Assembly (NCBI GenBank): GCA_027887005.1
Contig: JAPCJI010000003.1
Coordinates: forward strand, 124,001-188,000
DNA from: Nitrososphaerota archaeon
Lineage (GTDB): Archaea; Thermoproteota; Nitrososphaeria; Nitrososphaerales; Gagatemarchaeaceae
DNA: 64,000 nucleotides
Reading direction: 5' to 3'
Shown: one piece after another, positions 21,773 to 51,727 of the stretch
Layout: every line of letters starts with the position of its first letter
Numbering within the stretch: the first letter of the stretch is position 1
Made by a program: the position numbers and the translations under genes
Notes under the pieces: model-generated
Told to the model about the DNA's origin: nothing
Databases searched by the model: none
What the model saw: the letters and a program-made list of their open reading frames with translations, nothing else

Positions 21773-21868
21773 GGGGTTCTTCCTTCCTCGATGCGACGTA
21801 GTAGTCTCGGCCTTCTCTAAAGTGTCGGGACGTAAAGCCTATAACGCCCAAAACCGACTCTCCATGGC

Positions 21869-28241: not shown

Positions 28242-28281
28242 ATCAGATCATCTTTGCGATGGTTCCGCCACGGGTCCGCAG

Positions 28282-30067: not shown

Positions 30068-30078
30068 TCTTATATAGC
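30068..30078 (+). promoter_or_regulatory. TATA box of the NMT1-like binding-protein gene
   Basis: TCTTATATAGC is centred about 28 bases before GTG 30101, the distance expected for a leaderless transcript. It is one of the cleanest TATA boxes in the window. Confidence 0.6.
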
Positions 30079-30100
30079 TCCTGCGAGTCCAACTTGCTCT

Positions 30101-32620: not shown

Positions 32621-32704
32621 GCACCGCTGTCCTCCCGCGACCCTAATGGGCCTTTGGGGACAAGGAGGGCATTCCATTGAAGGGCTCAGAGCAGACGAGG
32701 CAAA

Positions 32705-33187: not shown

Positions 33188-33330
33188 GGTTGCGCTGCTT
33201 TGACATGTCGTCTTGTATAAGGATATCAACTTACAGAATTTCGCTTGCGAGAAAAGAGGGGAAGACTAGGCCGTCAATCATCAACCATCGTAAAGAGACA
33301 TAATGATTTCGCAAGACAATATCAAGTCAA

Positions 33331-33338
33331 CTATAAAT
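33331..33338 (+). promoter_or_regulatory. TATA box that moves the ParB-like start to 33363
   Basis: CTATAAAT lies inside the longest open frame (ATG 33303) but about 27 bases before ATG 33363. This spacing supports transcription starting close to 33360 and a leaderless start at 33363. Confidence 0.5.
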
Positions 33339-33362
33339 ACGACTATACAAAGAGACTGTGCG

Positions 33363-35484: not shown

Positions 35485-36663
35485 CTACCCGACCTCTATC
35501 AATTCACGCGGTAAGTCGGAAACGATATCGCAGCCGTCCTTTGTCACGATGGCGCTATCCTCGACATTGAAGCCTCCGAGCCCGAACTTGTGATACGGAA
35601 CCTCAAGAGATAGGGTCATCCCGGCCTGCAGTTGCGTGTCATCATTTCCTGAGAGAAACGGCCTGTCGTAGAGTTCGACCCCAACTCCATGCCCAACGTT
35701 TCCTCTCGTGTACTTGCTGTCTAGGTTCTTCTTGACATAATTGACGACGATTGCATGCAGCTCAGATGCCTTATGGCTTGGCCCACACGCGTCAATCAAC
35801 CTCTCCTCTGCCTCTTGAAGGACTCTGTAGATCTTCCGTGCTTCCGGCGGCGCCTTGCCCACGACAAGAGTCCGAGATAGGTCGGCCGTATACCCTTTGT
35901 AGACGCAACCAACGTCAATTCTTATTATGTCTCCTTTCTGAATTCTCCTGTCCGTGGGTTGGCTGTAGATGTTCGGCCCATCAGTTGGCCCCGCAGCAAT
36001 TGAGGTCTGCTGCCACATATCGCCACCATCCCTCAGGATGGCCGACTTCAGCACAAGCTGAAGTTCCCGCTCATGAATTCCCACACGAGTCTCGGCCATG
36101 ACTTTCCTTATCGCTGCGCAGAGTATCCTGTTCGCTTCCTTGAATCGTCTTAGCTCCTCCTTGCTCTTCACCATCCTCAGCAGCTCAAACATGAGAGTCT
36201 CATCACTTATTTCGATGTCCCGCAGCAGACTCCGCAATCGTTCAGAAGCATACACGGTCGCATATTTCATGTCCAAGCCTACCTTCTTTGCATTGCTCTT
36301 CCTGACTATTCTCGCAACGGCCTCCAAAGGATCTGCAGCGACATCTTTCGGGATTTGCCGACCCGGTCTTACAATATAGGTCCCTGTTGCATAGGTCCTT
36401 ACATCCTCGACCCATGAACTTTCTTGCACAAGCTCAATTGCGGCGCTCGTTACTACAAGCGTGACTTCTCCGGTCTTGCTGATTGTGGCGAAGGCAGGAG
36501 AGGAATTCTTAACACAATTCAATAGTCTGTTTGGTGAAACGGGGGAGACCGGGAGGTCCGTTACGTAGAATATGTTCTCAGGAACTGTTACCACAAGGAA
36601 GTCAAGGCCTTTCTGATCCATGGCATCGGTAAAGCGTTTCATAGAGAATTTCGGTTGAACCAC
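35485..36663 (-). CDS. M24 metallopeptidase (Xaa-Pro dipeptidase/aminopeptidase P type)
   Basis: 392 residues (in-frame ATG at 36642 is an alternative start). N-terminal creatinase-like domain (FTDAMDQKGLDFLVVTVPENIFYVTD) and C-terminal pita-bread domain. Metal ligands are visible in DIIRIDVGCVYKGYTADLSRT (two Asp), NVGHGVGVELYDRPFL (His) and LSLEVPYH plus VEDSAIV (Glu). It should cleave Xaa-Pro peptides or a related C-N bond such as in creatine. It overlaps the opposite LeuA-like long frame by 9 bases only if that frame starts at 36655. Confidence 0.87.
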   Translation of the reverse strand: MVQPKFSMKRFTDAMDQKGLDFLVVTVPENIFYVTDLPVSPVSPNRLLNCVKNSSPAFATISKTGEVTLVVTSAAIELVQESSWVEDVRTYATGTYIVRPGRQIPKDVAADPLEAVARIVRKSNAKKVGLDMKYATVYASERLRSLLRDIEISDETLMFELLRMVKSKEELRRFKEANRILCAAIRKVMAETRVGIHERELQLVLKSAILRDGGDMWQQTSIAAGPTDGPNIYSQPTDRRIQKGDIIRIDVGCVYKGYTADLSRTLVVGKAPPEARKIYRVLQEAEERLIDACGPSHKASELHAIVVNYVKKNLDSKYTRGNVGHGVGVELYDRPFLSGNDDTQLQAGMTLSLEVPYHKFGLGGFNVEDSAIVTKDGCDIVSDLPRELIEVG

Positions 36664-36737
36664 GTCGTTCGGTCGTCGTATCGCCCCAATAAGTGTTTAA
36701 CGCGGAATGATCCTTTGCAAGATTTGAAGGGACATAC

Positions 36738-36747
36738 GCTTAAAGCA
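36738..36747 (+). promoter_or_regulatory. TATA box placing the HMGL-like start at 36769
   Basis: CGCTTAAAGC lies about 27 bases before ATG 36769, which supports this ATG over the in-frame start at 36655 that would overlap the divergent M24 gene. Confidence 0.45.
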
Positions 36748-36768
36748 GTGAGTCGAGCGCGCGAACAC

Positions 36769-37989
36769 ATGACTTCGTCTTTCAGAAAAGGAGGTTACTA
36801 TGTCAGCGCCTACAACTTCGAAGACGAAGTTCGTGCAGGTCTCGGGTTCCCAAAGAAGGTTCGAATTCATGATGTTACGCTAAGGGACGGGGAACAACAG
36901 GCCGGCGTCGTCTTCAGGAGTAGAGAGAAAGTCAGGATAGCGCGGGCCTTGGCCGAAGCTGGCGTGAACAGAATCGAGGCAGGTCTACCTTCTGTTTCAA
37001 GCGATGACGCGAAGGCCGTGAAGGAAATCACACATCTCGGACTCCAATCGAAGATATTCGCTTTCTCTCGTTGCATGAAGTCTGATGTCGACAACGCATT
37101 GAGAGTCGACGTCGACGGCTTGGTGATGGAGATACCTTCCAGTGACCACCTGATAAAATACGGGTACGGTTGGACCGAAGACAAAGCGATCGACTTGGCT
37201 GTGGAAGCGACTGACTACGCTCACCGCCATGGGCTCTACGTGGCCTTCTTCACCATTGATTCAACAAGGGCAGATTTCAAGGTGTTCTGGAGGCTCATAA
37301 GTCAGGTCGCGACCAAGGGACACATGGATTCTCTTGTCGTTGCTGATACATTTGGCGTCATGAACCCCCAAGCCTACGCGCATTTTGTCAAGCGAATCAG
37401 GAAAGTCACCCAGAAACCCATTGAAATTCACGCTCACAACGACTTCGGGTTGGGGGTAGCGAACACACTGGCCGGCCTGGCGGCTGGCGCGGAGGTGGCT
37501 CATGTCACTGTAAACGGACTCGGCGAAAGAAGCGGGAACGCGTCGTTGGAGGAGCTCGCCGTCGCGCTCAAAATGCTATATGGAGTGAAGACTGACATGA
37601 AACTGGACAAGCTGCGCAGCCTGTCCAAATTGGTTGAACGACTCTCGCGCGTTAGACTCACACCCCAGAAACCAGTGGTTGGGGATCGACTCTTCGAGAC
37701 CGAGTCTGGAATCATCGCTGGATGGTGGAGGCGGTTGGAGAAGCTGGGAATGCCACTCGAAATGTTCCCATTCCTTCCTAGCGTCGTTGGGCATGACCCG
37801 GTGAGAATCGCAGTCGGAAAGAAAAGCGGGAGAGACTCCATATTCTACAGGGCGGACAAGCTCGGGTTGACCGTGGACGAGGCGAAAGTGGACAAAGTTC
37901 TGCTGGCCGTCAAAGACGAAGCGATAAGAAGGAAGAGAACACTGACCGACCAAGAATTCTCCCGAATCACGTCGAGGATGAATAGATGA
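36769..37989 (+). CDS. Homocitrate/isopropylmalate synthase family enzyme (HMGL-like)
   Basis: 406 residues from ATG 36769. TIM-barrel of the DRE-metallolyase superfamily: IHDVTLRDGEQQAGVVF (Arg-Asp of the active site), AGVNRIEAGLP, SLVVADTFGVMNP, PIEIHAHNDFGLGVANTLAG (metal-binding His-x-His-x-Asp) and VNGLGERSGNASLEE. A C-terminal helical region follows, but the full LeuA regulatory domain is missing, so it resembles homocitrate synthase or re-citrate synthase-like members. It should condense acetyl-CoA with a 2-oxo acid. An aminotransferase gene follows after 25 bases, a natural partner. Confidence 0.82.
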   Translation: MTSSFRKGGYYVSAYNFEDEVRAGLGFPKKVRIHDVTLRDGEQQAGVVFRSREKVRIARALAEAGVNRIEAGLPSVSSDDAKAVKEITHLGLQSKIFAFSRCMKSDVDNALRVDVDGLVMEIPSSDHLIKYGYGWTEDKAIDLAVEATDYAHRHGLYVAFFTIDSTRADFKVFWRLISQVATKGHMDSLVVADTFGVMNPQAYAHFVKRIRKVTQKPIEIHAHNDFGLGVANTLAGLAAGAEVAHVTVNGLGERSGNASLEELAVALKMLYGVKTDMKLDKLRSLSKLVERLSRVRLTPQKPVVGDRLFETESGIIAGWWRRLEKLGMPLEMFPFLPSVVGHDPVRIAVGKKSGRDSIFYRADKLGLTVDEAKVDKVLLAVKDEAIRRKRTLTDQEFSRITSRMNR

Positions 37990-38014: not shown

Positions 38015-39187
38015 GTGAAGACGAAAGGAGCGCAAGCCAGACTCTCGACCAAGGCACGCGACCTCCCTCTTTCTGGCATACGTGTAATCTACGACAAGGC
38101 TCAGCTCATCCCTGATGTCATACACTTGGAGATAGGTGAACCAGACCTCCCAACTCCAGCGCACATCGCCAAGGCAGGGCAAGAGGCCATATCGAATGGT
38201 CTTACTCGCTATACCCCCAGCGCGGGGACTCCCGAACTGAGAGAAGCGATAGCAAGAAAGCTACGCAGTGAGAACAGCCTTGACTACGATTCCTCTGAGA
38301 TCGTAGTCACCAGCGGGGCAAATGTAGGCCTCTCCTTGGCAATGCTCGCCCTGGTCGACCCGGGTTCAGAGGTGCTGACACCCAACCCAGGATGGGCGAA
38401 CTACGAGCCTTTGATGAAACTAGTTCAAGCGACACCGACCTACTATTCCCTCAGAGAGGAAGACCAGTTCAGGCCTAGAATCGGCGAGATGACTTCGCTC
38501 GTTACCGACAGGACGCGTGCGATTCTCCTAAATTCTCCCAGCAATCCAACTGGAGGCGTCTTGGAGAAGGATGACTTGGAAGGGATTTCCGATCTGGCGA
38601 GAAAGAAGGACCTTCTCGTGATTGCCGACGAGGTCTACGAGAAATTGGTGTACGACGGGGCCGAGCACCACAGCATCGCGAAATTTGAGGGGATGAAAGA
38701 CAGAACCGTCACGATAAACGCGTTTTCGAAGACTTACCGGATGACTGGATGGAGGCTCGGCTACGCCGCAGGACCCAAGGAAGTAATTAGCGCAATGGTT
38801 AGATTGAATTCCTGCATGAATACCTGCTCGTCGTCTGTATCACAAGCGGCGGGGGTGGCGGCACTAAATGGCCCGCAGGACTGCGTAAAGGAGATGGTTG
38901 GAGAATTCGCATCCAGGAGAGACATGTTTGTAAAAGGTTTGAACCAGATTCAGGGTTTCAGATCCATGACGCCGAAAGGTGCCTTCTACGCGTTCGCCAA
39001 CGCAAGCTCTGTCGACGCGAGTTCCTTCGACCTTTGCCTCCGTCTGCTTGAGAAGGCAAAAGTTGCCACCGTTCCTGGTGTTTCGTTCGGTTCTAGAGGT
39101 GAGGGATACCTGAGATTCTCCTACGCCGCGCCTAGGCATCAGCTTAAGGAAGCGCTCGCTAGAATTGGTTCGCTGGGTTCCATCTAA
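38015..39187 (+). CDS. PLP-dependent aminotransferase class I/II
   Basis: 390 residues from GTG 38015. Fold type I aminotransferase: VIHLEIGEPDLPTPAHI, VTSGANVGLSLAMLAL, LLNSPSNPTGGVLEKDDL, VIADEVYEKLVYDG and the PLP Lys in TINAFSKTYRMTGWRLGYA. A Arg near the C-terminus (GYLRFSYAA) should bind the substrate carboxylate. It forms a likely two-gene operon with the HMGL-like enzyme and would aminate the resulting 2-oxo acid or feed it from an amino acid. Specificity cannot be read from sequence. Confidence 0.9.
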   Translation: MKTKGAQARLSTKARDLPLSGIRVIYDKAQLIPDVIHLEIGEPDLPTPAHIAKAGQEAISNGLTRYTPSAGTPELREAIARKLRSENSLDYDSSEIVVTSGANVGLSLAMLALVDPGSEVLTPNPGWANYEPLMKLVQATPTYYSLREEDQFRPRIGEMTSLVTDRTRAILLNSPSNPTGGVLEKDDLEGISDLARKKDLLVIADEVYEKLVYDGAEHHSIAKFEGMKDRTVTINAFSKTYRMTGWRLGYAAGPKEVISAMVRLNSCMNTCSSSVSQAAGVAALNGPQDCVKEMVGEFASRRDMFVKGLNQIQGFRSMTPKGAFYAFANASSVDASSFDLCLRLLEKAKVATVPGVSFGSRGEGYLRFSYAAPRHQLKEALARIGSLGSI

Positions 39188-39309: not shown

Positions 39310-40308
39310 TTATGAAACGGCGTCCATCACGGATTTCATCAGCTTCGAACTCGCCGGCCTGACAATCGGGAGTTGCACGCCAGCCTTCCTGTATTCTTCG
39401 ACTCGCTCTCTGACCTCTCGGGCCGTTCCGAATGCAGTGAGGCTGCGAATTACGTCCTCAGGGATGTCCTGGGCCAGTTTCTCCTTCCCCCCGATTCTGT
39501 ACGATTCTGACAGCTTCTGAATCAGGGCTTCGGTAACCACAGGTTCGCCCACCCTTATTCGAGGCCTGACCGCGAAGTCCACCTGGAGAGGATCGAACTT
39601 GCTCGCGAGCTCCCACCTGAGTGCGTTCTCTGCTTCCTTGGTGCCATCCGTAACACCCGACACTACCAAACCTGTAATAATGAAGTCGTTGAAGTTCCTC
39701 CCAGCCGCCTCGGCCGCCTGCTTTACTACAGCGAGTGCATTGCGGGCGTATTCGGGCGATGTGGTGGCATTAACGACTACACCGTCGCCAACTTCCCCCG
39801 CAATCCGAAGTCCGGTCCTGCTTGTCGATGCAAGGAGCAGAGGGATCTTAGATTTCGGTCTGATCGCCAAACCTTCCCCCTCTACCTCAATCGTTTCGCC
39901 CTTGAAGCTGACCGTCTCGTTCTCCCAGTACTTCTTTATCAGCGTCGCATGTTCCTTCAATACCTTCGCAGGGTTCTGCAGGGGGAGTCCGTGCTTGCGT
40001 GCATGGGAATCCGTGCAGGCGCCAACCGAGAGTATGACCCTCCCCCCGGAGATTTCGTTCAGAGACGTGAAGGTCTGAGCAATTACCAGAGGAGTCCTAA
40101 TCCTCAGTATCTGGGTGCATCCAAATCTCATCCTACTTGTCCTGACAGAAAATGCGGTCAATGACGTGATTGCGTCTCTCATTGTCATTATTGTCTCGGA
40201 GAAGAAAGTCAACTCGAAACCCCTCTCCTCTGCATCAATTACCCACTTCGACATGTCATTCACGGTGAGTTCTGGGCTGTAACCGAGACCGAGTCCGACT
40301 CTTTCCAT
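39310..40308 (-). CDS. Luciferase-like F420/flavin-dependent oxidoreductase (second)
   Basis: 332 residues from ATG 40308 (the frame extends to 40347). LLM family markers: VGLGLGYSPELTVNDMSKWV, AEERGFELTFFSET, MRFGCTQILRIRTPLVIAQ, LNEISGGRVILSVGACTDSH and KSKIPLLLASTSRTGLRIAG. More like methylenetetrahydromethanopterin-reductase-type F420 enzymes than bacterial luciferase. The start is fixed by a TATA box at 40330-40339, about 27 bases upstream. It is monocistronic; the convergent aminotransferase gene ends about 120 bases away. Confidence 0.85.
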   Translation of the reverse strand: MERVGLGLGYSPELTVNDMSKWVIDAEERGFELTFFSETIMTMRDAITSLTAFSVRTSRMRFGCTQILRIRTPLVIAQTFTSLNEISGGRVILSVGACTDSHARKHGLPLQNPAKVLKEHATLIKKYWENETVSFKGETIEVEGEGLAIRPKSKIPLLLASTSRTGLRIAGEVGDGVVVNATTSPEYARNALAVVKQAAEAAGRNFNDFIITGLVVSGVTDGTKEAENALRWELASKFDPLQVDFAVRPRIRVGEPVVTEALIQKLSESYRIGGKEKLAQDIPEDVIRSLTAFGTAREVRERVEEYRKAGVQLPIVRPASSKLMKSVMDAVS

Positions 40309-40329
40309 GTGCCGACCTCGGCCTGTCAG

Positions 40330-40339
40330 CGTATATAAG
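40330..40339 (-). promoter_or_regulatory. TATA box of the second luciferase-like gene
   Basis: On the minus strand CTTATATACG stands about 27 bases before ATG 40308, which selects that start over the 13-codon longer frame. Confidence 0.55.
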
Positions 40340-40358
40340 AAGGGCACTCCACAGTTCT

Positions 40359-40999: not shown

Positions 41000-41719
41000 T
41001 CAGACCTTGTTTCCTTTCCTCACCGCCCTCCCTTGCAAGGAGGCCAAGTAAGCCTTGGCTTCGCTCAAGGAGATCACACTGGCATACTTCTGATTGATGT
41101 CAAAGAGGTTGACCTTGTGCGAGATTTCGAACCGGTCGAAGACGCATTCCTCAACGACGAGGGTCGGGTAGTTATAAGAAAAGGCGTCCACAACGGAGGC
41201 CCTCACGCACCCGCTCGTGGTGCAGCCCGTGACAAGCAATGTGTCTATCCCCAGAGAGACGAGCTGAGCAACCAACGGTGTTCCGAAGAAGGCGCTTGGC
41301 TTGAGTTTGGAAATTATGATGTCTCCAGGTTGGGGCTTTATTTCATTTGGAACACTCTCAACCGTATTGTAGATGCCATCGGTTGCTTCCAATACGCGTT
41401 TGTGCTTCTCAGCCCACATTCCCGCTTCTGCCTTGCTGCTTCTTACCCCCGCGGTGTATATCACCGGAACCGACCTTGACCTAGCCGCTTGCATCAGTTC
41501 CTTGATCTTGTGGACGGCCCTCCACCCGGCTTCGCCGCAACTGTTCGGGAAACGTTCGATCGATTTCAAGATTGGCTCTGGTCTGTCACCCACAAAGGCG
41601 GTTGTCACATCTATTACAAGCAAAGCGGGTCTCCTTCGGGGCCTAACCTTGCCACCGTACCCCGCCCTCCGGAATATCATCTGGTCTGAGACCTTGATGA
41701 GGTCATCCCAAACTGGCAT
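41000..41719 (-). CDS. Isochorismatase-fold cysteine hydrolase (amidase type)
   Basis: 239 residues from ATG 41719; a TATA-like TATTGTAAT about 26 bases upstream supports it over ATG 41740. The catalytic triad is Asp in ALLVIDVTTAFVGD, Lys in IIISKLKPSAFFGT and Cys in LLVTGCTTSGCVRASVVDA, with the cis-peptide position before the Cys region. Members include N-carbamoylsarcosine amidase, maleamate amidohydrolase and ureidoacrylate hydrolase (RutB). The GCTTSGCVR motif points to an amidase or carbamoyl hydrolase. It lies downstream of the molybdenum hydroxylase operon on the same strand and may act on its product. Confidence 0.85.
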   Translation of the reverse strand: MPVWDDLIKVSDQMIFRRAGYGGKVRPRRRPALLVIDVTTAFVGDRPEPILKSIERFPNSCGEAGWRAVHKIKELMQAARSRSVPVIYTAGVRSSKAEAGMWAEKHKRVLEATDGIYNTVESVPNEIKPQPGDIIISKLKPSAFFGTPLVAQLVSLGIDTLLVTGCTTSGCVRASVVDAFSYNYPTLVVEECVFDRFEISHKVNLFDINQKYASVISLSEAKAYLASLQGRAVRKGNKV

Positions 41720-41875
41720 GGCCGATAATCCGAAAGACATTATTGTAATAAGTGTTCCAGCTTTTGGTTTGAGTTTCTGTCGACTCGGTGAAACACTTCC
41801 GAGATGTGACGGTTGTAAAGAGTAACAGTGACCATAGAGTCTGCCGCCAGCTAGTTCCCCGATCCTCCCAGGAGC

Positions 41876-42313
41876 TCAGCCTTCGATAGACTTCGAAATA
41901 CAATCTACGAATTGGGAGACCATTTTGCTCATCTGTGATTTGATAATCTGGTTGACAGCCCATTCGAAGGCTCCTCGTGCCGTAATTTCCGCAGTAAGTT
42001 TCACCTTGGTCGAGGTTGGGTTCTCTTCGCTCAGCTGCAGCTTCCAAACTCCTGTCAAATCTCCATCAATACTTTGTAGGTTGATCACCAGGCTCTCAGG
42101 CTTCACCCTCTCGGCAACATGAGCTCTTGCCTCTATCCTGCGGCTTACAATCCCCACGCTTAGTTTCATTTTCCATCTGGAATCATCAGGCCCGAGTACA
42201 TCAACCGCTTCGCAACCAGGTATGCATTTTCCTAAACTTTTGAGGTCATTCAACATTTCCCAAAGTTTGTCGCGGGGGAGTCCCAGAGAGAACTCGGTAT
42301 TTGTTGTGGGCAA
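41876..42313 (-). CDS. CoxG-like SRPBCC protein
   Basis: 145 residues. It matches CoxG: EFSLGLPRDKLWEMLNDLKS, LGKCIPGCEAVDVLG, then a beta-rich lipid/START-like fold and a C-terminal amphipathic helix (QIIKSQMSKMVSQFVDCISK). CoxG anchors molybdenum hydroxylase to the membrane in carboxydotrophic bacteria. It is last in the leftward operon (large, medium, small subunits, G) and starts 13 bases after the small subunit gene, so it probably helps assemble or dock that enzyme. Confidence 0.8.
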   Translation of the reverse strand: MPTTNTEFSLGLPRDKLWEMLNDLKSLGKCIPGCEAVDVLGPDDSRWKMKLSVGIVSRRIEARAHVAERVKPESLVINLQSIDGDLTGVWKLQLSEENPTSTKVKLTAEITARGAFEWAVNQIIKSQMSKMVSQFVDCISKSIEG

Positions 42314-42326
42314 GGTTTCTTGGTTC

Positions 42327-42794
42327 TCACCTGATAGCGCTTTGCACCGCTACTTCGCGAATGCTCTTCAAGTAGGGAACGTAGCCAGTGCATCTGCACA
42401 GGACACCACACAGTGCCTCCCTGATCTCATCTTCCGTCGGGTGGGGATTCGAGTCAATGAGCGCCTTCGCCGCCATAAGTATTCCAGGGGTGCAGTAGCC
42501 ACACTGTGAAGCGGAATTCCTTACGAAAGTGTCCTGAAGTTGGTGAAGCTTGCCTTTCCTTTCGAGTCCTTCGACAGTCTCAAGCTTCCCTCCTTCCGCC
42601 TTCCAAGCGGGCGTCATGCAGGAGTAGACAATCAACCCATTGAGAATTACGGAGCACATGCCACACCCACCAGAATCGCATCCCCGCTTTGTTCCCGTCA
42701 TTCCGAGTGTCTCCCTAAGCATGTCCGCAAGAGATGTTGAGACTGATACTTCGACCTCCTGTAATGCTCCGTTGATCTCCAAATTCATCTTCAA
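42327..42794 (-). CDS. Molybdenum hydroxylase small subunit, two [2Fe-2S] clusters
   Basis: 155 residues, the normal size. The N-terminal plant-type ferredoxin domain has GCDSGGCGMCSVILNG and a later Cys (YSCMTP); the C-terminal four-helix domain has QCGYCTPG and LCRCTGY. All eight cluster Cys are visible. It passes electrons from the molybdenum subunit to the FAD subunit. It overlaps the FAD-subunit gene by 4 bases. Confidence 0.93.
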   Translation of the reverse strand: MKMNLEINGALQEVEVSVSTSLADMLRETLGMTGTKRGCDSGGCGMCSVILNGLIVYSCMTPAWKAEGGKLETVEGLERKGKLHQLQDTFVRNSASQCGYCTPGILMAAKALIDSNPHPTEDEIREALCGVLCRCTGYVPYLKSIREVAVQSAIR

Positions 42795-43684
42795 CTTTCT
42801 GCACTCCCCCCCGCTCTGCTGACTGCCGATAGCAGCGCATCCCTTACGAGAACAGGGATGACCCGCTTCTTGTAGTCACTGGAGGCGTGAATAGAGGCCG
42901 TTGGCTCCATGGTTGCCGCCTCCTTTGCTGCCCTCAATATGACGTCCTTTGAAACAACTTTCCCTTCGAGAGCTCCTTCGGCCATCTCCATGCGGACTGG
43001 CTTGTTGGCCACGGCGCCGAGGGCAATACGAGTTTCTTCAATTCTCTTTTTCGACGAATCAAGCACCACTCTGGCTGCTGCATTTACAACCGCGAAATCG
43101 GACGATGTCCTTCCCAGCTTGACAAACGCAGTTCCTGTGTTCAAGTTTCCCTCAACCCGTGCCTCGGTAAGAATCTCTTCGGGAGAAACTGCCGTCATGA
43201 AATAATCAAGAAAGAACTCTTCGACGTTAAGTTCTCTCTCTCCCTCTGTGGTGGCAATCCTGAGCCGTGCTCCTAGTGCGAGCATCGTTGTCGGCATGTC
43301 ATAAAATGGTATCCCACTGCAAAGCGCGCCTCCCAAGGTGCCCATGTTTCTCACCTGAGGCGGGGTGAGCTTCTTTGCTGTCTCCTTGATGGCAAAGTAC
43401 TCCGGTCTTTCGAGCACTGGTGACCTCGCCATTTCCGCGAATGTGGTTGCGGCACCTATGCTGATCCCATTTTCTCGTTCCTTGACGTAACTCAGGCCGG
43501 CATGAGTGATATCTATCAGACAATCAATGTCGACCAGCGCGCCCTGCGCGACGAGCTCGTAGATCGTTGTATTCCCTGCGACGAGTCTGGCCGAAGTTCC
43601 GTATTCCCTGAGCAGCTTCACTGCCTCGTCAACGTCCTTAGGCCTCAACAGTGTCGTTGGACCGTAACTAGGCATGTGTCTCAA
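42791..43684 (-). CDS. Molybdenum hydroxylase FAD-binding medium subunit
   Basis: 297 residues of the CoxM/XdhB family. FAD-binding motifs: LVAGNTTIYE (the usual AGGTDL-type loop, diverged), ISIGAATTFAEMARSPVL and NMGTLGGALCSGIPFYDMP (the TLGGN motif reads TLGGA). The C-terminal CODH domain follows. It overlaps the large-subunit gene by 17 bases. It accepts electrons from the small subunit and hands them to an external carrier. The diverged first loop is worth noting but not clearly disabling. Confidence 0.9.
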   Translation of the reverse strand: MRHMPSYGPTTLLRPKDVDEAVKLLREYGTSARLVAGNTTIYELVAQGALVDIDCLIDITHAGLSYVKERENGISIGAATTFAEMARSPVLERPEYFAIKETAKKLTPPQVRNMGTLGGALCSGIPFYDMPTTMLALGARLRIATTEGERELNVEEFFLDYFMTAVSPEEILTEARVEGNLNTGTAFVKLGRTSSDFAVVNAAARVVLDSSKKRIEETRIALGAVANKPVRMEMAEGALEGKVVSKDVILRAAKEAATMEPTASIHASSDYKKRVIPVLVRDALLSAVSRAGGSAES

Positions 43685-46010
43685 CGCGCTTCGACAGCGC
43701 CTCCAAGACCCTCTCTGGCGTCATTGGCAAGTCGTTGAGCCACACCCCAACTGCATCATGAATTGCATTCCTAATTGCAGCTGCAGTTGGGAGAGTTGAA
43801 GGTTCACCAGCTCCTTTAGCCCCATATGGACCATCATGGTATGCAGTCTCTATGATTAATGGGTCAATATCAGGGGCATCCAGCACGTTAAGCAGCTTGT
43901 AATCAGCCAGATTCGCATTTGCGGTCTTTCCATTGGAAACCACCATCTCCTCACCGAGTGCAGCGCTTGCACCCATCGCCACGGATCCTATGATCTGCGC
44001 CTTCACTATTTCGGGGTTTATTGCTTTCCCCACGTCCATTGCAGCAGCGATGCGCCTAATTCTCACTAACCCTGTTTCAATATTCACGACAACCTCTGCC
44101 GCCTGACACACCGGAATATAGTAAGGAGAGATTCTTCCCCCCAGCGTCCGACCGGTCTCTGGGTCAGTTTCAGCCGCCTTCTTGAATACGGTCCCGTACC
44201 CTACAAATTCCATCCCTTCCACCAATCCGCTCACGGCGAGCTTTCCAGCGAGAATGTTCGCTTGCGTGAATAGATCCGAAATCATGATTGACCTTCTTGG
44301 GTCAGTCTTCGCAAATACTCTTTTTCCGCTTACTTCTATTCCCTCGGGTGAAGTGTGTAGAATTCTGGCCCCGCGCTCAGCAATCTTCCTCTTTGCATCT
44401 TGGCAGGCCAGTTGGGTCGCGCGACCAACGTTCACAAGTTGTCTGCTTGCTGATGCACCTCCCGAGAGTCCACTCGTGGAAGAATCGGAGTAGCCTAGAA
44501 CAAATGGCATAACAATTACGTCCCCTGCGGATATCCCAAACTCGGTCGCGACCAGCTGTGCTATACTCGTGTAGATTCCCGCACCATTCTCTACAAGCTC
44601 GGCCCAGATTTCGACCTTCCCGTTCTCTCTTACTCTGACCATCGCCTGGTGTGGGCCAACGGGCCCCCACTTCGCAGCCAACGAGACTCCCTTACCTGCT
44701 TTCCAAACTCCTTCTCCCTGCGGTTTCACTCCCCACCCGATAGACTTCGCCGTTTCATTGAGGCACCTCTCGAAAGAGGCGTCTTCTACAAGTTCACCCA
44801 TCGCATTCTCCTGCCCATCTTGCAGAAGATGCCACTTTCTGTACTCAATGGGGTCTGAACCAATCCTGGATGCTAGCAGGTCCATTTGCGACTCTATCGC
44901 CCACACCATTTGAAGACCGAGTGGCGCCCTTTTTGTTGTCCCGGGGGGAAGGTTTGTGTAGACTCTGTATGTGTCGATCTTGAGGTTAGGGATGTCGTAG
45001 ACGGCGCATGCCGCGAATAAGCTGTTTCGCATAACGTTATTTCCAAGCGAGCCGTAAGCACCTCCGTTGTAGAGCGCTCTTATCTCGCGGGCGAGTATCT
45101 TTCCATCCTTGCTTAGCCCATCTCTTATGCTGATTCTGGAAGAGTGTCGAACCCCAGTTGCAGTCATGGTTTCTTCTCTGGAGAGTTCGAGCTTGACGGG
45201 TCGGCCCGTCTTCATTGCGAGCATCGCGCACACCGCCGCGACGTGAGATTCCTCCTTGCTTCCGAACCACCCGCCCATGTACGGGACTCTGCCTCTCACA
45301 AGATAGCGATCAACGCCGATGTAAGTCGAAACCTCGGCCTGGATTTTGTGCGGACCAGCACTTGTGCCCCAGATCGTTACGCCTCCGTCAGGATCAGGTT
45401 GCGCGAGGAAGGTCAGCGGCTCAAGTTGGAAGTGGGATTCCATGGCGGTCGTGTACGTGTTCTCGACGATCATGCCTGAGTGTCGGAAGCCTTCCTCAAC
45501 GTCTCCCTTCCTAATCTTGAGATGCCTTCCCACATTGGGCGATTCCGTTTTCTCGCCTGGATGGCTGATAACAGAGGGGGGATTGGGCAGCATAGCAGCC
45601 TCTACATCTAGAATTGGTGGGAGCTCCTCGTATTCCACCTCGATGAGGTCGACTGCTCCATTCGCAAGAGCTCGTGTTTCTGCGGCGACTGCAACTACTG
45701 CCTGGTTCGCGTAAAGAATCTCCCCACGCGCAAGCGCCGGTGTGTCCTCCGTACCTATCTCAGGGAAATCCTCTCCCGTTATGACTGCTTTGACACCGAG
45801 GGCTTCCCGAGCCGCACGCATGTCAATGCGGAGTATCCGAGCATGTGAGAATGGGCTGCGCTTTATCCTTGCGTAGAGCATGTTGGGCAGACTCATGTCT
45901 CTTGTGTAGAGGGCTTTGCCACTCACCTTCAGTTTTGAATCAACGCGAGGGAGGGACACCCCCACCAGGGAGGTTTCGGGCTGACGGAGGACCTCTTCCT
46001 GACTAGACAA
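43668..46010 (-). CDS. Molybdenum hydroxylase large subunit (xanthine dehydrogenase family)
   Basis: 780 residues from TTG 46010. Molybdopterin-binding features: GGWFGSKEESHVAAVCAMLA (near residue 250), the central RALYNGGAYGSLGNNVMRNS, the Gln-containing loop region and the catalytic Glu in AKGAGEPSTLP near the C-terminus. Where form I CO dehydrogenase carries AYxCSFR this protein reads GTTKRAPLG, with no Cys, so it should hydroxylate an aldehyde, purine or N-heterocycle and not CO. It is first in a four-gene operon (L-M-S-G). A TATA box lies about 27 bases upstream. Confidence 0.92.
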   Translation of the reverse strand: MSSQEEVLRQPETSLVGVSLPRVDSKLKVSGKALYTRDMSLPNMLYARIKRSPFSHARILRIDMRAAREALGVKAVITGEDFPEIGTEDTPALARGEILYANQAVVAVAAETRALANGAVDLIEVEYEELPPILDVEAAMLPNPPSVISHPGEKTESPNVGRHLKIRKGDVEEGFRHSGMIVENTYTTAMESHFQLEPLTFLAQPDPDGGVTIWGTSAGPHKIQAEVSTYIGVDRYLVRGRVPYMGGWFGSKEESHVAAVCAMLAMKTGRPVKLELSREETMTATGVRHSSRISIRDGLSKDGKILAREIRALYNGGAYGSLGNNVMRNSLFAACAVYDIPNLKIDTYRVYTNLPPGTTKRAPLGLQMVWAIESQMDLLASRIGSDPIEYRKWHLLQDGQENAMGELVEDASFERCLNETAKSIGWGVKPQGEGVWKAGKGVSLAAKWGPVGPHQAMVRVRENGKVEIWAELVENGAGIYTSIAQLVATEFGISAGDVIVMPFVLGYSDSSTSGLSGGASASRQLVNVGRATQLACQDAKRKIAERGARILHTSPEGIEVSGKRVFAKTDPRRSIMISDLFTQANILAGKLAVSGLVEGMEFVGYGTVFKKAAETDPETGRTLGGRISPYYIPVCQAAEVVVNIETGLVRIRRIAAAMDVGKAINPEIVKAQIIGSVAMGASAALGEEMVVSNGKTANANLADYKLLNVLDAPDIDPLIIETAYHDGPYGAKGAGEPSTLPTAAAIRNAIHDAVGVWLNDLPMTPERVLEALSKRVETHA

Positions 46011-46035
46011 CTTTTTCGTTTCGCGGCTCGTGATG

Positions 46036-46044
46036 ATTATAAAT
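46036..46044 (-). promoter_or_regulatory. TATA box of the molybdenum hydroxylase operon
   Basis: ATTTATAAT on the minus strand lies about 27 bases before the TTG start at 46010, matching the leaderless spacing seen elsewhere here and supporting the TTG. Confidence 0.55.
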
Positions 46045-46176
46045 CTTGAACTTCATCCGAATTCGATTCATTACTGTGAGTGACACTTCCGGAATCAGAG
46101 GTCTAGCATCCCATTCGCCGATGCTCAATGGCGAAAGGGAGATGGTGGACGAGGAAACGTGGAAAGTCTCGGGTCT

Positions 46177-47157
46177 TCATCCGGTCGAGAAATCTTGCAG
46201 AAAAACATCATCTAATCGGACTGTCCTCGCGATTACCTCCTGCTCTCGTTGATATTCCATGAACGTGCTGATTGTCTTTCTGTTATCCCCTAGTCCGTAG
46301 GGATAGGGATCTGGACCCATCAACGCCCGCTGCTCCTCCAACGCACTCCGTGCCCATGCGAGGCTGATCTTGTCGCCATGATCCTCCAGATACCTGTAAC
46401 CTGACTCCTTCGAGGTCTGGAAGGCGTCAAAGAGACTTTTGGCCACCCATGGATTCTTTTCGTACACCTGCCTCTGTAGGACAACGGTGTGCATTATGGG
46501 AAATATGCCCGTACGTTTGAAATACCGCTCTTCTTCCGCTTTCCATTCCACAAAGAGCCGCCTTGTTCTCTTGCCGTTGTACAGCCCTGCTGGGGGCCTT
46601 GAACTTATCAGCGCGTCGATCTCTCCCTTTTCAAGGGCGACCCCAGCTCTTTCCATGGATGTCTCGGGAGTGAGGTCAGGGGCCTCGAGTATCTTGAATT
46701 TCCTTACACGCTTCATCGGGTACCTCTCGCCCCTGAACCTGACCCAATCTATCAATCGAATTGGCACATCATACTCGTGTTGAAGTATTCCCTTTATCCA
46801 AATGGAAGCGGTTTGTTGCCATTCAGGGATACCAACCTTGGCGCCCACAAGATCAGCGGGTTCGCTAATCTTGGCTTCTGTGTTGCAGAATATGTAAGAG
46901 TGTCTGAAGACTCTGGACGGGAAGACCGGCAGGGCGACGTAGGACTCGTCGCCCGCGCTCCGAGATGCCAGGTAGGATGATAGGGAGAATTCGCAAGAGT
47001 CGAACTCCTTGTGACTTATCATTCTTCGGAAGATTTGGTCAGGATCCTCTACTACGATGTACCTGAGTTCGGTATCCTTTGGTCGAACCTTTCCGTCTAT
47101 CAGGGCATGAGTTCGGTCATAATCTCTCCCGGCATAGGTTAGACTGAGCTTGGTCAA
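46177..47157 (-). CDS. 4,5-dihydroxyphthalate decarboxylase-like / PBP2-fold protein
   Basis: 326 residues without a signal peptide. The PBP2 fold is evident: LSLTYAGRDYDRTHALIDG, then EFSLSSYLASRSAGDESYVA, VFPSRVFRHSYIFCN and LVGAKVGIPEWQQTASIWIK, followed by EIDALISSRPPAGLY. This is the arrangement of the 4,5-dihydroxyphthalate decarboxylase family, intracellular relatives of binding proteins acting on phthalate-type acids. It is upstream of the molybdenum hydroxylase operon on the same strand with a 166-base gap holding that operon's own promoter. Its presence is a hint that an aromatic dicarboxylate is involved. Confidence 0.75.
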   Translation of the reverse strand: MTKLSLTYAGRDYDRTHALIDGKVRPKDTELRYIVVEDPDQIFRRMISHKEFDSCEFSLSSYLASRSAGDESYVALPVFPSRVFRHSYIFCNTEAKISEPADLVGAKVGIPEWQQTASIWIKGILQHEYDVPIRLIDWVRFRGERYPMKRVRKFKILEAPDLTPETSMERAGVALEKGEIDALISSRPPAGLYNGKRTRRLFVEWKAEEERYFKRTGIFPIMHTVVLQRQVYEKNPWVAKSLFDAFQTSKESGYRYLEDHGDKISLAWARSALEEQRALMGPDPYPYGLGDNRKTISTFMEYQREQEVIARTVRLDDVFLQDFSTG

Positions 47158-47341
47158 TTCGGTCGATTCACCGCGTTCCGACTCCCATTTCTTACCTTCT
47201 TCCCCGTCTTGAGGGCCTCTTTCGACATTAAGAAACTTGCATCCTGACCCCAGTCATGATCAGAAACGCCCTGATCTGACTTAATAGCCTGGCGGGCGAA
47301 TCCGCGGAACGCTTAAGATTACAAACAGGCTGATAGCAAGT

Positions 47342-48064
47342 GTGTCGGCTTCCGTCGCGAATTTAAGGCGCAGAATAGCTTTTGCGTGCCGGATAGCTTT
47401 CCTGGAGGGCCTGCACGAGGAGTTGGGCAATGAATATGCTGGGCACATAAGCGTAAGGACCGATAATGATAGGATACTGATGCCGGGTCACGTGCATGAA
47501 CTTGCAAGAGGGCTTGGGGAGATGACATCGGGTGACATCATCTCGCTCGATCTGAATGGCAGGGTGGTTGAGGGGAAACTCAACCCGGTCGACGAAGTGT
47601 ACATTCACACGCATATTTACCAGGCGCGTCCAGAAGTAAACAGCATAGCACACCTACATCCTCCAACTGCAACCGCATTGGGTAGTACCGACGCTCAACT
47701 GCTTCCAATTTCCCTAAGAGGCTCGCTCTTTGCTGACGGTGTACCGGTTCTCAAGCGTGGACCCCGACTTATCGACGACCATGAGATTGCCGATGAAATG
47801 GTAGCCAGGCTCGGAAATCGCAAGGCAATCATCCACAAAGGGCATGGCGTTGTGACAGTCGGGAGAAACTTGGAAGAAGCCTGCTTCTTGATGATCAGCC
47901 TCGAAGGCGCCGCGCGAAACCAGATACTCGCCAGCCACTTCGGCAAGGTGGTTCCGTTTGATGAAGCAAATGTGTCGGAGTATGCGAAAAAGGTTGACCT
48001 TTCAAAGAAGACAGAGGGCTGGAAGTACTATGAGAACAAGTGGAAGAGATTCAGGCCCGATTAG
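47342..48064 (+). CDS. Class II aldolase/adducin family protein
   Basis: 240 residues from GTG 47342. The zinc site of class II aldolases is visible: VDEVYIHTHIYQARPEVNSI (His-x-His), AHLHPPTATALGS (His-x-His) and IIHKGHGVVTVG (His). GNEYAGHISVR is the phosphate/substrate loop region. Family members (fuculose-phosphate, ribulose-phosphate, HMG/4-carboxy-4-hydroxy aldolases, phthalate-pathway decarboxylases) cleave C-C bonds. It is divergent from the dihydroxyphthalate-decarboxylase-like gene, suggesting one pathway. Homologues in aromatic degradation act as decarboxylases on hydroxylated rings. Confidence 0.85.
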   Translation: MSASVANLRRRIAFACRIAFLEGLHEELGNEYAGHISVRTDNDRILMPGHVHELARGLGEMTSGDIISLDLNGRVVEGKLNPVDEVYIHTHIYQARPEVNSIAHLHPPTATALGSTDAQLLPISLRGSLFADGVPVLKRGPRLIDDHEIADEMVARLGNRKAIIHKGHGVVTVGRNLEEACFLMISLEGAARNQILASHFGKVVPFDEANVSEYAKKVDLSKKTEGWKYYENKWKRFRPD

Positions 48065-48248
48065 GACGAACAGAACTTCAACTGCGCTGAGTTGTCCTAG
48101 ATATTTGGAGCCTAATCTCTGAATGTGAAGCTTGGGCTTGGCTCTTTCCTTGGCTCACGGCGAAGCCGTTCTGAGGTAGTTTGCCGTCGACTGGGTCGCC
48201 AAATTGATGGAACCCTGACAGGGCAAGGAAATGGCAATCGGAAGGCAT

Positions 48249-49256
48249 CTAGTCCAGTCTTAGCAAGTTCCTCGCATTGATTTCGAAAATCTTCTCTCTT
48301 TCTTCTTCACTAATCCTCAAATCCACGACGTTCTTTATTATTCCCTTGGTGTAGTTCTCACCCTGGTCTGGACCAAAGGGATAGTCCGTTGCGAAGACTA
48401 GCTTTTCAGCTCCGAAAAACTCGTAGCCGCAACGGAGTGCAGACAGACCACCGTTGGTCACTGTGTCTGCATAGAATTTCTTGAAGGCTTCGATCGGATC
48501 CGTGATGGCTCTACTCGTCTTTGAGGCTGAATCTGTGGGGATTTCACCATGACTCGTTCCCCGCTCCACGGAAGTGTCGTATACGCCCCTGATTCTCTCG
48601 CTAAAGTGAGGAATCATGGCGCCGACGTGATGACAAACCACTTTCAACTCTGGATGTCTCTGTAGAACCCCCCCAAAAACGAGTCTAGCCATAGCCAAAC
48701 TAGTGTCGAAGGGCCAACCAAACGTCTGGAAGAGGTCATATTCACGTATCCAAGGATAGTACTGCCAAGTCATCGGGTGCAGAAGCACCGGCAGATCGTA
48801 TTTCTCCATCCGCTGGAAGAAGGGGTCGAATTCTATCGAGTCCAGAGGTTTTCCATCTACATTCGAGAAGATCATGCAGCCCTTCATTCCCAGTTCATTT
48901 ATTCCTCTGTCAAGTTCGTCGAGGGCATCTTGATCGGCTGGGTCTGGCAACGACGCAACGGGAATCAATCGGTCGGGGAACTTGTCAGTGACTTCGGCCA
49001 GCGCATCATTAGAAAGCCTGGTCAAGGCTCTACGGTCATTATTGGGTATCCTTCCCCAGAACGAGGGAAGCGAGACGGTGAGCGCTTCCATCTGAATTCC
49101 AAATCTGTCCATGACCTTCACCCTATGACCCGCATCGGTAAAGTGTCTGCCCGGATTGGGTGTGAGGAAACTAGGAAGCTGGCTACTAGTTAGCGACTTC
49201 AATAGACGTTGGGGAAAGATGTGGCAGAACATGTCTATCTTGGTAGTTCTAGTCAT
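48249..49256 (-). CDS. ACMSD-type amidohydrolase with a changed first metal motif
   Basis: 335 residues from ATG 49256 (frame extends to 49277). Amidohydrolase-2 family: PVLLHPMTWQY, LKVVCHHVGAMIPHF and LVFATDYPFGPDQGE carry the His and Asp ligands. The N-terminal metal motif reads KIDMFCHIFP, so the position of the first ligand in the usual D-x-H-x-H or E-x-H is Phe. Either the metal site is reduced or this member binds metal differently. GCATAATAT (about 49279-49287) is a TATA box at the right distance for ATG 49256. Probably acts in the same catabolic network as the member at 26361. Confidence 0.82.
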   Translation of the reverse strand: MTRTTKIDMFCHIFPQRLLKSLTSSQLPSFLTPNPGRHFTDAGHRVKVMDRFGIQMEALTVSLPSFWGRIPNNDRRALTRLSNDALAEVTDKFPDRLIPVASLPDPADQDALDELDRGINELGMKGCMIFSNVDGKPLDSIEFDPFFQRMEKYDLPVLLHPMTWQYYPWIREYDLFQTFGWPFDTSLAMARLVFGGVLQRHPELKVVCHHVGAMIPHFSERIRGVYDTSVERGTSHGEIPTDSASKTSRAITDPIEAFKKFYADTVTNGGLSALRCGYEFFGAEKLVFATDYPFGPDQGENYTKGIIKNVVDLRISEEEREKIFEINARNLLRLD

Positions 49257-49288
49257 TCGCGCCTGGCAGGGTATCAATGCATAATATC

Positions 49289-49900: not shown

Positions 49901-51727
49901 CTATTGTTCTTCTGACTCCCTTCCCTCTACGTCACCACCCTTTTTAGAGGTCACATAGTAGTAGGTCCCGTTCTCCTTCTGCTCCCGGTCGAGTTTGCTC
50001 CCGGGCTTGTTCACCCTTGGCCTGCCGGTGTTCACGTCACGCCTGTATGTGAGGCCGACCTGCTTCAGGAACGCGTTCATCCCATCCTCCTTGCTGAGCG
50101 GGGTCGTCGCCTCTCCTTCCACTCCCGGCGTGCCCGCGAAGACCATGAGCCTGTCGGACACGATGTCGACGACCTGCAGGTCGTGGTCGATTATTATCGC
50201 CGCCTTCCCCCTGGCCTTGACCATCCTGTTGATCGCCCTGGCGACTACGAACCTGTCCTCGACGTCGAGGAAGGCTGAAGGCTCGTCGAGGGCGTAGACC
50301 TCCGCTTTCTGGGCCATGGTAGCAACTATCGCGACCTTCTGAAGCTCCCCGCCGCTCAGCTCCTTCACCTTGCGAGCGAGAAGCTTCTCCATCCTGAGGG
50401 GGACCGCCAGGGCGTCCTGAAGGTCAGGCTCGCCGTAGCGCGCTCCGAGGGTGCTCGTAAGGAACTCGTCCACGGTCCCGTCGAAGGCCGAAGAAAGGTA
50501 CTGGGGCTTGTAGGCGACCGTCGCGTCCACTGAGACCTTCCCCTTGGTCGGCTTCTCTTGGCCCGCGACCATCTTCAGGAAGGTTGTCTTCCCCAGGGCG
50601 TTGGCGCCCACGACGCCGAGGATGGTCCCCTGGTTGATGGCCCCTCCGTCGACCTTGAGCTTGAATCCCTCGTAGGATTTCCTCAGGTCGGTGTACTTCG
50701 CGACGACCTCCTCGCTTTCTGCGGTCTCCCCCGCAGCCCTCTCGCCGAAGGACACCGCGTGGTCCCTGAACCGGATGTTCTCCTGGGGGAGGTACCCGTC
50801 GAGGAGGGCGTTGATGCCGGTCCTCGCCGCGTAGAGCCCAGAAACGACGCCGTAGGCCCCGGGCTCCCCGTAGATTATCTGGGCGTAGTCTGCCACGTAG
50901 TCGAGGAACGCGACGTCGTGCTCCACTACCAGGACAGCCTTCCCCTGCTCTGCTAGTCCGCTGATGAGCCTGGAGACGGCGAGCCTCTGGTAGACGTCGT
51001 TGTAGGAGGAAGGTTCGTCGAAAAGGTAGAGGTCAGCGTCCTTGAGAGCGGCTGCGGCGACGGCTACGCGCTGCAGCTCCCCTCCGCTCAGGTCGGGGAG
51101 TTTCTTGTCCAGGGTCTCGCCCAGGTTCAGCTTCGCCACGACGTCGTCCAGCGCCTTCCTCTCGTCCATCTGCTTGAGCATCCTCCTCGTCTCTCCCGGC
51201 CAGGCCTCGGGGAGCTTGTAGACCGCCTGGGGCTTCAGGGAGACTCTCATCTCCCCGTCCGCTACCCTTTCGAAGTGCTCCTTCATCTCGCGGCCGCTGA
51301 GGTATGAAAGGAACTTGTCCCAGCTCGGCGGGTGCTCGTAGTCCCCCAGGTTGGGCACCAGCTGACCGGCGAGTATCTTCAGGGCTGTTGACTTGCCGAT
51401 GCCGTTGCGCCCGACCAGACCTACTACCTGTCCCTTCCTGACCGTAGGTATGTGGAAGAGCCTGAACGAGTTGACCCCGTACTGGTGGATCTTCTCAGTC
51501 TTGAGTTCCTCGCTCAGGTTCAGGATGTCTATGGCGTCAAAAGGGCAGACCTTGATGCAGATGCCGCAGCCTATGCAGAGGTCTTCGGAGATCAGGGATA
51601 TCTTGTCCGGGCGGAGCACGATGCACTCCTGGCCGTTTATGTTGACTGGGCACTCCTTGATGCATTCAAGCCCGCACTTCTTGCTCTGGCAGAGGTCGTC
51701 GTCCACCACGGCTACTCGATGTACCAT
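49901..51727 (-). CDS. ABCE1/RLI1 ribosome recycling ATPase
   Basis: 608 residues. N-terminal ferredoxin domain with two [4Fe-4S] sets (CQSKKCGLECIKECP and CIGCGICIKVCPFDAI), then twin ABC cassettes: Walker A GRNGIGKS and GANALGKT, signatures LSGGELQR and LSGGELQK, Walker B LYLFDEPSSYND and VYALDEPSAFLD, hinge regions and H-loops VEHD and IDHD. All are typical of ABCE1, which splits ribosomes into subunits after termination in archaea and eukaryotes. A short basic/acidic tail after ~575 is extra. A membrane-protein gene ends 10 bases upstream of its start on the same strand. Confidence 0.97.
   Translation of the reverse strand: MVHRVAVVDDDLCQSKKCGLECIKECPVNINGQECIVLRPDKISLISEDLCIGCGICIKVCPFDAIDILNLSEELKTEKIHQYGVNSFRLFHIPTVRKGQVVGLVGRNGIGKSTALKILAGQLVPNLGDYEHPPSWDKFLSYLSGREMKEHFERVADGEMRVSLKPQAVYKLPEAWPGETRRMLKQMDERKALDDVVAKLNLGETLDKKLPDLSGGELQRVAVAAAALKDADLYLFDEPSSYNDVYQRLAVSRLISGLAEQGKAVLVVEHDVAFLDYVADYAQIIYGEPGAYGVVSGLYAARTGINALLDGYLPQENIRFRDHAVSFGERAAGETAESEEVVAKYTDLRKSYEGFKLKVDGGAINQGTILGVVGANALGKTTFLKMVAGQEKPTKGKVSVDATVAYKPQYLSSAFDGTVDEFLTSTLGARYGEPDLQDALAVPLRMEKLLARKVKELSGGELQKVAIVATMAQKAEVYALDEPSAFLDVEDRFVVARAINRMVKARGKAAIIIDHDLQVVDIVSDRLMVFAGTPGVEGEATTPLSKEDGMNAFLKQVGLTYRRDVNTGRPRVNKPGSKLDREQKENGTYYYVTSKKGGDVEGRESEEQ

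Follow-up and report, generated by a model that had tools for sequence, protein, structure and literature searches.

A catabolic gene island at the 3′ end of ABCE1 in a Nitrososphaerota archaeon and its probable arrival by integration

The island and its borders

The DNA analysed here is a stretch of 64,000 nucleotides (the window, by which all positions are numbered) of contig JAPCJI010000003.1 from a Nitrososphaerota archaeon of the Gagatemarchaeaceae (assembly GCA_027887005.1). Eight genes for a molybdenum (Mo) hydroxylase and several hydrolase- and decarboxylase-like proteins had been predicted to form one contiguous catabolic island at positions 41000–49256. Open reading frames (ORFs) and family matches confirmed all eight genes, with the families claimed, at that place; the last gene ends at 49277, 21 bases past the original border. 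The catabolic character of the cluster also stands, but its genes form three transcription units and belong to a larger structure. Very probably, the cluster forms the right-hand part of an approximately 27-kb block of foreign genes for breakdown enzymes, inserted at the tail of the host gene ABCE1. This larger island extends from 21.8 to 49.9 kb, about three times the size of the predicted cluster, and a whole gene set for the oxidation of organic matter apparently arrived at once.

The block is set off by its composition. The G+C content at third codon positions (GC3) is low in all 24 cargo genes (23655 to 49277), ranging within 0.514–0.656 versus 0.73–0.84 in ten surrounding host genes (FAD oxidase, cytochrome b, TYW2, ABCE1 and the gene next to it, SurE, HTH, Hsp20, CDC48 and LysRS). 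For the integrase gene of the left border GC3 is 0.684, and the total G+C content is 0.520 in the island versus 0.584 in its near flanks. The cargo is enclosed by 32-bp att-like direct repeats (23396–23427 and 49931–49962, both on the minus strand), identical at 29 of 32 positions, and the right copy lies inside the regenerated coding 3′ end of ABCE1. When as many as 3 mismatches are tolerated, the whole window holds only these two copies, versus 0.00 expected in shuffled sequences, and a search for exact repeats of at least 12 bases between the borders found none. The left border carries a tyrosine recombinase/integrase gene (21869–23044, +; PF00589 and PHROG integrase). Its product has R, HxxR, H and Y, which we take to be the catalytic set of tyrosine recombinases, and judging by these residues the enzyme appears intact.

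The target gene ABCE1/RLI (49901–51727, −; Fer4_RLI and two ABC domains) was detected, apart from the own genome, in 25 of 30 congeners searched and is 80–86% identical to its counterparts there. Surroundings were fetched for 14 of these 25. In all 14 the gene adjoins that of a TYW2-type tRNA methyltransferase, with aligned ends 10–109 bp apart; in the window TYW2 (20948–21772, −; PF02475) is the left-flank host gene and 28.1 kb separate it from ABCE1. Thirteen cargo or integrase proteins were sought in the 14 congener stretches and none was seen. Directly upstream of TYW2 the window retains a displaced remnant of the old ABCE1 3′ end (21780–21818, −), recognised by alignment to the congener ABCE1 ends, which starts at 21805–21818 in 14 of 14 cases; taken alone, its score of 43 versus a shuffled maximum of 34 overstates the match, since 13 of the 14 alignments continue into the start of TYW2. 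The ABCE1 gene of the window itself ends in a different tail from the one left near TYW2. In a survey of thaumarchaeal integrated elements, 14 of 68 mapped elements reside in the 3′ end of a protein-coding gene, for which the element supplies the stop (PMC6563490). The displaced end near TYW2 and the new ABCE1 tail form the pattern that an element leaves when it integrates at such a site. Thus an integrase, direct repeats with a regenerated target and an empty site in relatives are all found together, and there is little doubt that the block is an integrated genomic island.

Cargo genes and their enzymes

At the right end of the island six genes follow each other on the minus strand with gaps of 166, −17, −4, 13 and 135 bases. 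They encode a protein resembling 4,5-dihydroxyphthalate decarboxylase (DHPD; 46177–47157), with a periplasmic-binding-protein fold; the Mo subunit of CoxL or xanthine dehydrogenase (XDH) type (43668–46010; PF02738, PF20256); the FAD subunit of CoxM type (42791–43684; PF00941, PF03450); the [2Fe-2S] subunit of CoxS type (42327–42794; PF01799); CoxG (41876–42313; PF06240, 62 bits); and an isochorismatase-fold amide hydrolase, ISO (41000–41740; PF00857, 104 bits). The gene of a class II aldolase-fold enzyme, either aldolase or decarboxylase (47342–48064, +; PF00596), is divergent from that of DHPD, and the gene of an Amidohydro_2 protein (48249–49277, −; PF04909) is convergent with the aldolase-fold gene. 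The strand directions therefore define three transcription units. Decarboxylase-type and amide-hydrolase-type enzymes do accompany the Mo hydroxylase operon, as was originally stated.

The Mo subunit, with 1rm6 as its best match in the PDB, carries the active-site Glu motif GAKGAGE at 730 and an unusual loop, GTTKRAPLGLQ. Together with the molybdopterin cytosine dinucleotide domain, both cysteine sets of the [2Fe-2S] subunit and the FAD subunit this characterises the enzyme as an XDH-type Mo hydroxylase. It shares the three-subunit Mo/[2Fe-2S]2/FAD layout and active-site Glu with the family of 4-hydroxybenzoyl-CoA reductase and xanthine dehydrogenase, but it has the unusual loop and falls below all NCBIfam equivalog cut-offs, those of the three 4-hydroxybenzoyl-CoA reductase subunits included (446 of 995, 73 of 405 and 170 of 258 bits). 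CO dehydrogenase was considered and rejected: neither the AYxCSFR motif of form I nor the AYRGAGR motif of form II is present and NCBIfam scores are 254.7 bits versus 950 and 226 versus 991, so the description of the enzyme as a non-CO hydroxylase holds. The own genome contains a MoaA-type gene for the cofactor and two further hydroxylase operons. Since the GC3 of these two is host-like, only the third operon, that of the island, is foreign.

The aldolase-fold protein retains metal-binding His and Glu motifs; its best NCBIfam match, 3,4-dihydroxyphthalate decarboxylase (PhtC), reaches 107.8 bits, below the cut-off of 200. The Amidohydro_2 protein at the right border belongs to the superfamily of ACMSD and gamma-resorcylate decarboxylase, with ACMSD, LigW and resorcylate decarboxylase as PDB matches and no match in NCBIfam. 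Its later His and Asp motifs are present, and the first His of HxH is replaced by Phe (KIDMFCHIFP). Altogether, none of the NCBIfam equivalog cut-offs of uracil, biuret, phthalate and 4-hydroxybenzoyl-CoA enzymes was reached.

To the left of this cluster the cargo begins with an M20-type deacylase/peptidase (23655–24956, −; PF01546), a flavin/F420 oxidoreductase of the luciferase-like monooxygenase (LLM) family (25148–26254, +; PF00296; TIGR03619 at 155.6 bits versus a cut-off of 166.9) and another Amidohydro_2 protein (26361–27347, +; PF04909). An ATP-binding cassette (ABC) importer of NMT1/SsuA type (27465–31315, both strands; PF00528, PF00005, PF13379/PF09084) consists of two permeases (27465–28241, − and 29078–29872, −), an ATPase (28282–29085, −) and a membrane-anchored binding protein (30101–31315, +). 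The next gene, which starts on the final base of the one for the binding protein, encodes a small protein with hydrophobic ends (31315–31920, +), for which no family was found in Pfam, NCBIfam or PHROGs. The cargo continues with an F420:NADP oxidoreductase-like protein (31985–32677, −; PF03807), an Lrp/AsnC regulator (32705–33229, −; PF13404/PF01037), a ParB-family protein (33303–34346, +; PF02195 and PF17762), an amidase of isoaspartyl peptidase/asparaginase type (34542–35471, −; PF01112), an M24 hydrolase of prolidase/creatinase type (35485–36663, −; PF00557, PF01321), an enzyme resembling isopropylmalate, citramalate and homocitrate synthases (36655–37989, +; PF00682; TIGR02090 at 344 bits, below the cut-off of 485), a class I aminotransferase (38015–39187, +; PF00155) and a second LLM oxidoreductase (39310–40347, −; PF00296). 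Outside the island the window holds an IS240-type transposase gene and two more integrase-family genes (675–1559, 61270–62562 and 62578–63894).

Relatives of the cargo and their gene linkage

Such pathways had been called scarcely described in this type of archaeon, and the genes are indeed unusual in this lineage: DHPD-like proteins are present in 5 of 101 relatives (own genome counted), 1 of 46 genomes of the family and 6 of 400 of the class. The nearest relatives of CoxL are found in genome G067 (58% and 51% identity), those of ISO (61%) and DHPD (49%) in Thaumarchaeota archaeon UBA141 (G055), which belongs to the same order as the host, and that of the right-border Amidohydro_2 protein in G069 (41%). 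For the aldolase, identity does not exceed 36% among those matches in the 101 relatives that have a listed locus, and one weaker match gives 38% over 103 residues. Because the nearest relatives differ from gene to gene, the island looks like a mosaic of catabolic modules and not like one conserved pathway. The closest CoxL relatives (57% and 51%) belong to two operons of a single contig (L064), and a gene for a UbiD-type decarboxylase lies between these operons. The contig also encodes an LLM protein, a ParB–SnoaL fusion and, next to the closest relative of CoxL, a relative of the island M20 protein (48%). A more distant hydroxylase operon, in G072, adjoins another UbiD. Hydroxylases thus stand repeatedly next to carboxy-lyases of differing folds.

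Other surroundings were found for DHPD itself. In Centralia_MAG_53 (Thaumarchaeota, L110:1–15103) its relative (40%) adjoins an Amidohydro_2 protein (35%). The same contig encodes three cupins, an FAA hydrolase, an alpha/beta hydrolase, an SDR protein, an EutA-like protein and an NMT1-type importer, a set that makes it a candidate aromatic-degradation cluster. On a Haloarcula plasmid DHPD is accompanied by an ABC importer, an M24-type protein, aspartate dehydrogenase and an amidohydrolase of another family, and the DHPD gene adjoins that of aspartate dehydrogenase both there (L168) and in UBA141 (L088/L013).

Linkage was estimated by tblastn within 8 kb of DHPD in 89 other loci (80 from the genome collection, six from relatives and three from plasmids), with the own counts of the window subtracted and L013 and L014 left out as copies of L088 and L089. 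The 80 collection loci are the best, most query-like, of at least 587, and the counts thus describe near relatives; clustering of neighbours by ORFs failed to recover DHPD in 22 of 90 loci, with long antisense ORFs as the probable cause. Among the neighbours are a Rieske oxygenase in 28 loci, Gfo/Idh in 14, CoxL in 11, aldolase in 10, Amidohydro_2 in 8, ISO in only one (at 27%) and CoxG in none. For the four closest ISO homologues (60 to 47%), those stretches of their contigs that were read contain no hydroxylase genes. No second arrangement uniting relatives of DHPD, CoxL, ISO, Amidohydro_2 and aldolase occurs in the fetched loci, and a conserved five-gene pathway was rejected.

The linkage of DHPD with the hydroxylase seemed strong at the outset (11 of 89 loci; 11 of 40 versus 2 of 49 in the two halves of the DHPD tree). 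In the control, 31 DHPD-bearing genomes (loci among L089–L166) turned out to hold 3–47 matches to XDH-type Mo subunits each, and the estimate was therefore lowered. Such numbers signify a strong expansion of these subunits. Proximity was observed in 9 of 32 loci versus 3.1 expected by chance (P 0.002), and within 1.5 kb in 5 versus 1.28 (P 0.008); in this control of 32 loci match counts per genome may be split or incomplete and kinship is ignored. Four of the nine linked loci come from one alphaproteobacterial clade. The original prediction proposed that scattered homologues would speak against a shared pathway, and by this measure the outcome is largely negative: homologues are indeed scattered; the proximity of DHPD and hydroxylase does recur. 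Its linear route, from hydroxylation through amide hydrolysis and decarboxylation to C–C cleavage, is improbable, given that ISO and the aldolase do not travel with the hydroxylase.

Several features of other hydroxylase loci were noted in passing. In 17 of 28 thaumarchaeal loci, many of them in UBA141, CoxL-type Mo subunits have no match to CoxM or CoxS within 8 kb (tblastn at 1e-8 with the subunits of the window; L069–L072, L074, L173–L180, L184, L187–L189), and may possibly be orphan large subunits. In two loci (L181, L182) the gene of an LLM oxidoreductase directly adjoins that of the Mo subunit of a CoxMSL operon, with ends 15–22 bases apart. ParB-family genes were registered near hydroxylase operons as five matches in four places of 28 hydroxylase loci (L064:6113–7267; L181:7995–8888; L182:4485–5369; L073:13765–14688; and 33303–34346 of the window) versus none of 21 comparison loci. 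Fusion of the L064 ParB to a SnoaL-like domain suggests a ligand-sensing regulator.

Possible function of the island and its significance

Taken as a whole, the data are best described by an integrated mobile catabolic island with the working proposed below, and we estimate the probability of this reading at roughly 0.62. A tyrosine integrase would have recombined the element into the last codons of ABCE1; the anatomy of the locus and the empty sites show that the element supplied a new 3′ end of the gene and that the old end remained before TYW2. The functional part, in which nitrogenous aromatic or heterocyclic acids are taken up, oxidised and decarboxylated, is offered tentatively. In its favour stand the families and motifs of the cargo proteins, the fold of DHPD, the UbiD and M20 neighbours of the closest CoxL relatives, the hydroxylases near DHPD in 11 of 89 other loci, the Centralia_MAG_53 cluster and the MoaA-type gene of the genome. 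The NMT1-type importer may take up such an acid, which LLM oxidoreductases and the three-subunit Mo hydroxylase would oxidise. The isochorismatase-fold, M20, M24 and asparaginase-type enzymes would free amide or acyl groups, and the DHPD-like protein would strip carboxyl groups with the aid of Amidohydro_2 and, perhaps, of the aldolase-fold enzyme. Aminotransferase and the HMGL-like synthase could then feed the product into central metabolism. There is good support for how the island arrived, but not for any particular substrate.

Several observations weigh against this picture. The integrase gene is not enclosed by the two 32-bp repeats but sits between TYW2 and the left copy, which implies either two units in tandem or a left repeat that marks another event; a small unit carrying the integrase and a large unit carrying the cargo, in tandem at a single site, would account for this position. 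Low GC3 is also found in a transporter gene outside the island (9397–12198, 0.652), and the outside G+C content is uneven (0.549 in 1–12 kb). A free form, sought in viral contigs by means of the integrase, ParB and the repeat, was not found, which proves nothing. In an NCBIfam scan of 19 of the 24 cargo genes only ParB passed a cut-off. The cargo showed no family of ring-cleaving dioxygenases; one LigB lies elsewhere in the genome. Parts of the island have different nearest relatives, and DHPD and hydroxylase occur together only modestly more often than by chance, so that at most a weak link between them can be claimed.

There is accordingly a serious possibility that the island is mobile but houses no shared pathway, having accumulated separate modules for oxidation and hydrolysis, each of use by itself. 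The different origins of the closest CoxL, ISO/DHPD and Amidohydro_2 relatives, the merely distant ones of the aldolase and the occurrence of ISO homologues without hydroxylases all point that way. It is opposed by the co-directional run from DHPD to ISO with its small gaps, by the joint presence of M20 and hydroxylase on contig L064 and by the coherent set that importer, oxidases and hydrolases form.

A pathway for an N-heterocycle, nicotinate-like or hydantoin-like, in which Mo-dependent ring hydroxylation is followed by amide hydrolysis by ISO, is unlikely. ISO, with Asp-Lys-Cys triad motifs, is only by prediction an amide hydrolase; its best PDB match is N-carbamoylsarcosine amidohydrolase (E 5.5e-38, 134 bits), followed at 103 bits by 3ot4/3uao, which we take to be the maleamate amidase NicF. 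Nicotinate dehydrogenase is also among the PDB matches of CoxL, but the best of them is 4-hydroxybenzoyl-CoA reductase. ISO scores only 53.6 bits versus a cut-off of 378 for RutB and 42.1 versus 370 for biuret hydrolase, no NicC- or NicX-type family was recognised among the 24 cargo genes, and ISO and hydroxylase are unlinked in the relatives read.

Still less credit can be given to degradation of phthalate, an aromatic dicarboxylate, with the DHPD-like protein as a true 4,5-dihydroxyphthalate decarboxylase. By sequence and fold this protein belongs to the Pht5/PhtD family. It matches the Comamonas testosteroni enzyme 9jp7 over the full length (phmmer E 6e-56, 32% identity) with the invariant family residues kept, no Pfam or NCBIfam family being matched, and its AlphaFold2 model (pLDDT 92.9) superimposes on 9jp7 with a TM score of 0.90 (0.85–0.91 by chain), other listed chains giving at most 0.62. 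The tree of 89 rows (L019, of 202 amino acids, excluded) tells otherwise. One half, of 49 rows, holds 27 of 28 members linked to Rieske or Gfo genes and 9jp7 groups with it (FastTree 0.989); the other half, of 40 rows, holds 11 of 13 hydroxylase-linked members (support 98/94) and the protein of the window, which thus does not share a clade with the solved enzyme and the members from phthalate operons. Neither a Rieske dioxygenase nor a Gfo/Idh dihydrodiol dehydrogenase was matched within 8 kb of the window DHPD, and it is this context together with the tree that makes the phthalate pathway so unlikely. In favour of the phthalate reading, a Pht5 annotation in hadal Thaumarchaeota has been interpreted in this way (PMC10773090). 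Its Group-3.unk shares the Pht5 annotation in non-ammonia-oxidising Thaumarchaeota, but the passages considered here describe no island or linkage and accept Pht5 at face value. Because the archaeal protein described here belongs to another half of the family, “Pht5” in archaeal metagenomes should not simply mean phthalate degradation. Finally, a chimera of assembly or binning, with a low-GC fragment of another organism joined on, would explain the deviating composition and absence from the 14 congeners, but it is scarcely credible in view of site-specific integration marks at both ends (the repeat in the regenerated ABCE1 end, the remnant and the integrase) and a 212-kb contig on which the host genes to either side keep the order that they have in congeners.

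Returning to the integrated catabolic island, we found no description of such an island at ABCE1 in the literature, judged mostly by titles and the openings of abstracts. The thaumarchaeal elements of PMC6563490 share with it an integrase, short repeats, 3′-end insertion, metabolic cargo and ParB, there in integrative-conjugative elements; in its section on protein-coding targets ABCE1 is not named, although some of the targets there are hypothetical proteins without a name. The present cargo is catabolic and a Pfam scan of its 24 genes revealed no VirB4/VirD4-type conjugation families, so that the block does not qualify as an integrative-conjugative element. In SAR202 Chloroflexi, LLM monooxygenases (FMN/F420) and XDH-type Mo enzymes were proposed to attack recalcitrant organic matter (PMC5395668). 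The island, with its two LLM proteins, shares this set, but in SAR202 it takes the form of large chromosomal paralogue families, as against a compact archaeal island here. It is conceivable, if doubtful, that the cargo is an att-flanked block without its own integrase, moved by a small tandem integrase unit at the ABCE1 3′ end, that such islands spread organic-matter oxidation in non-ammonia-oxidising Thaumarchaeota, and that ParB-family proteins, one of them SnoaL-fused beside related hydroxylase operons, would be their regulators and not partition proteins.

Integrated elements are already known in Thaumarchaeota. What is added here is a catabolic cargo with exact borders, whose site is empty in all relatives examined, and with it a concrete route by which a lineage with small genomes can acquire, in a single step, the ability to oxidise difficult organic matter.

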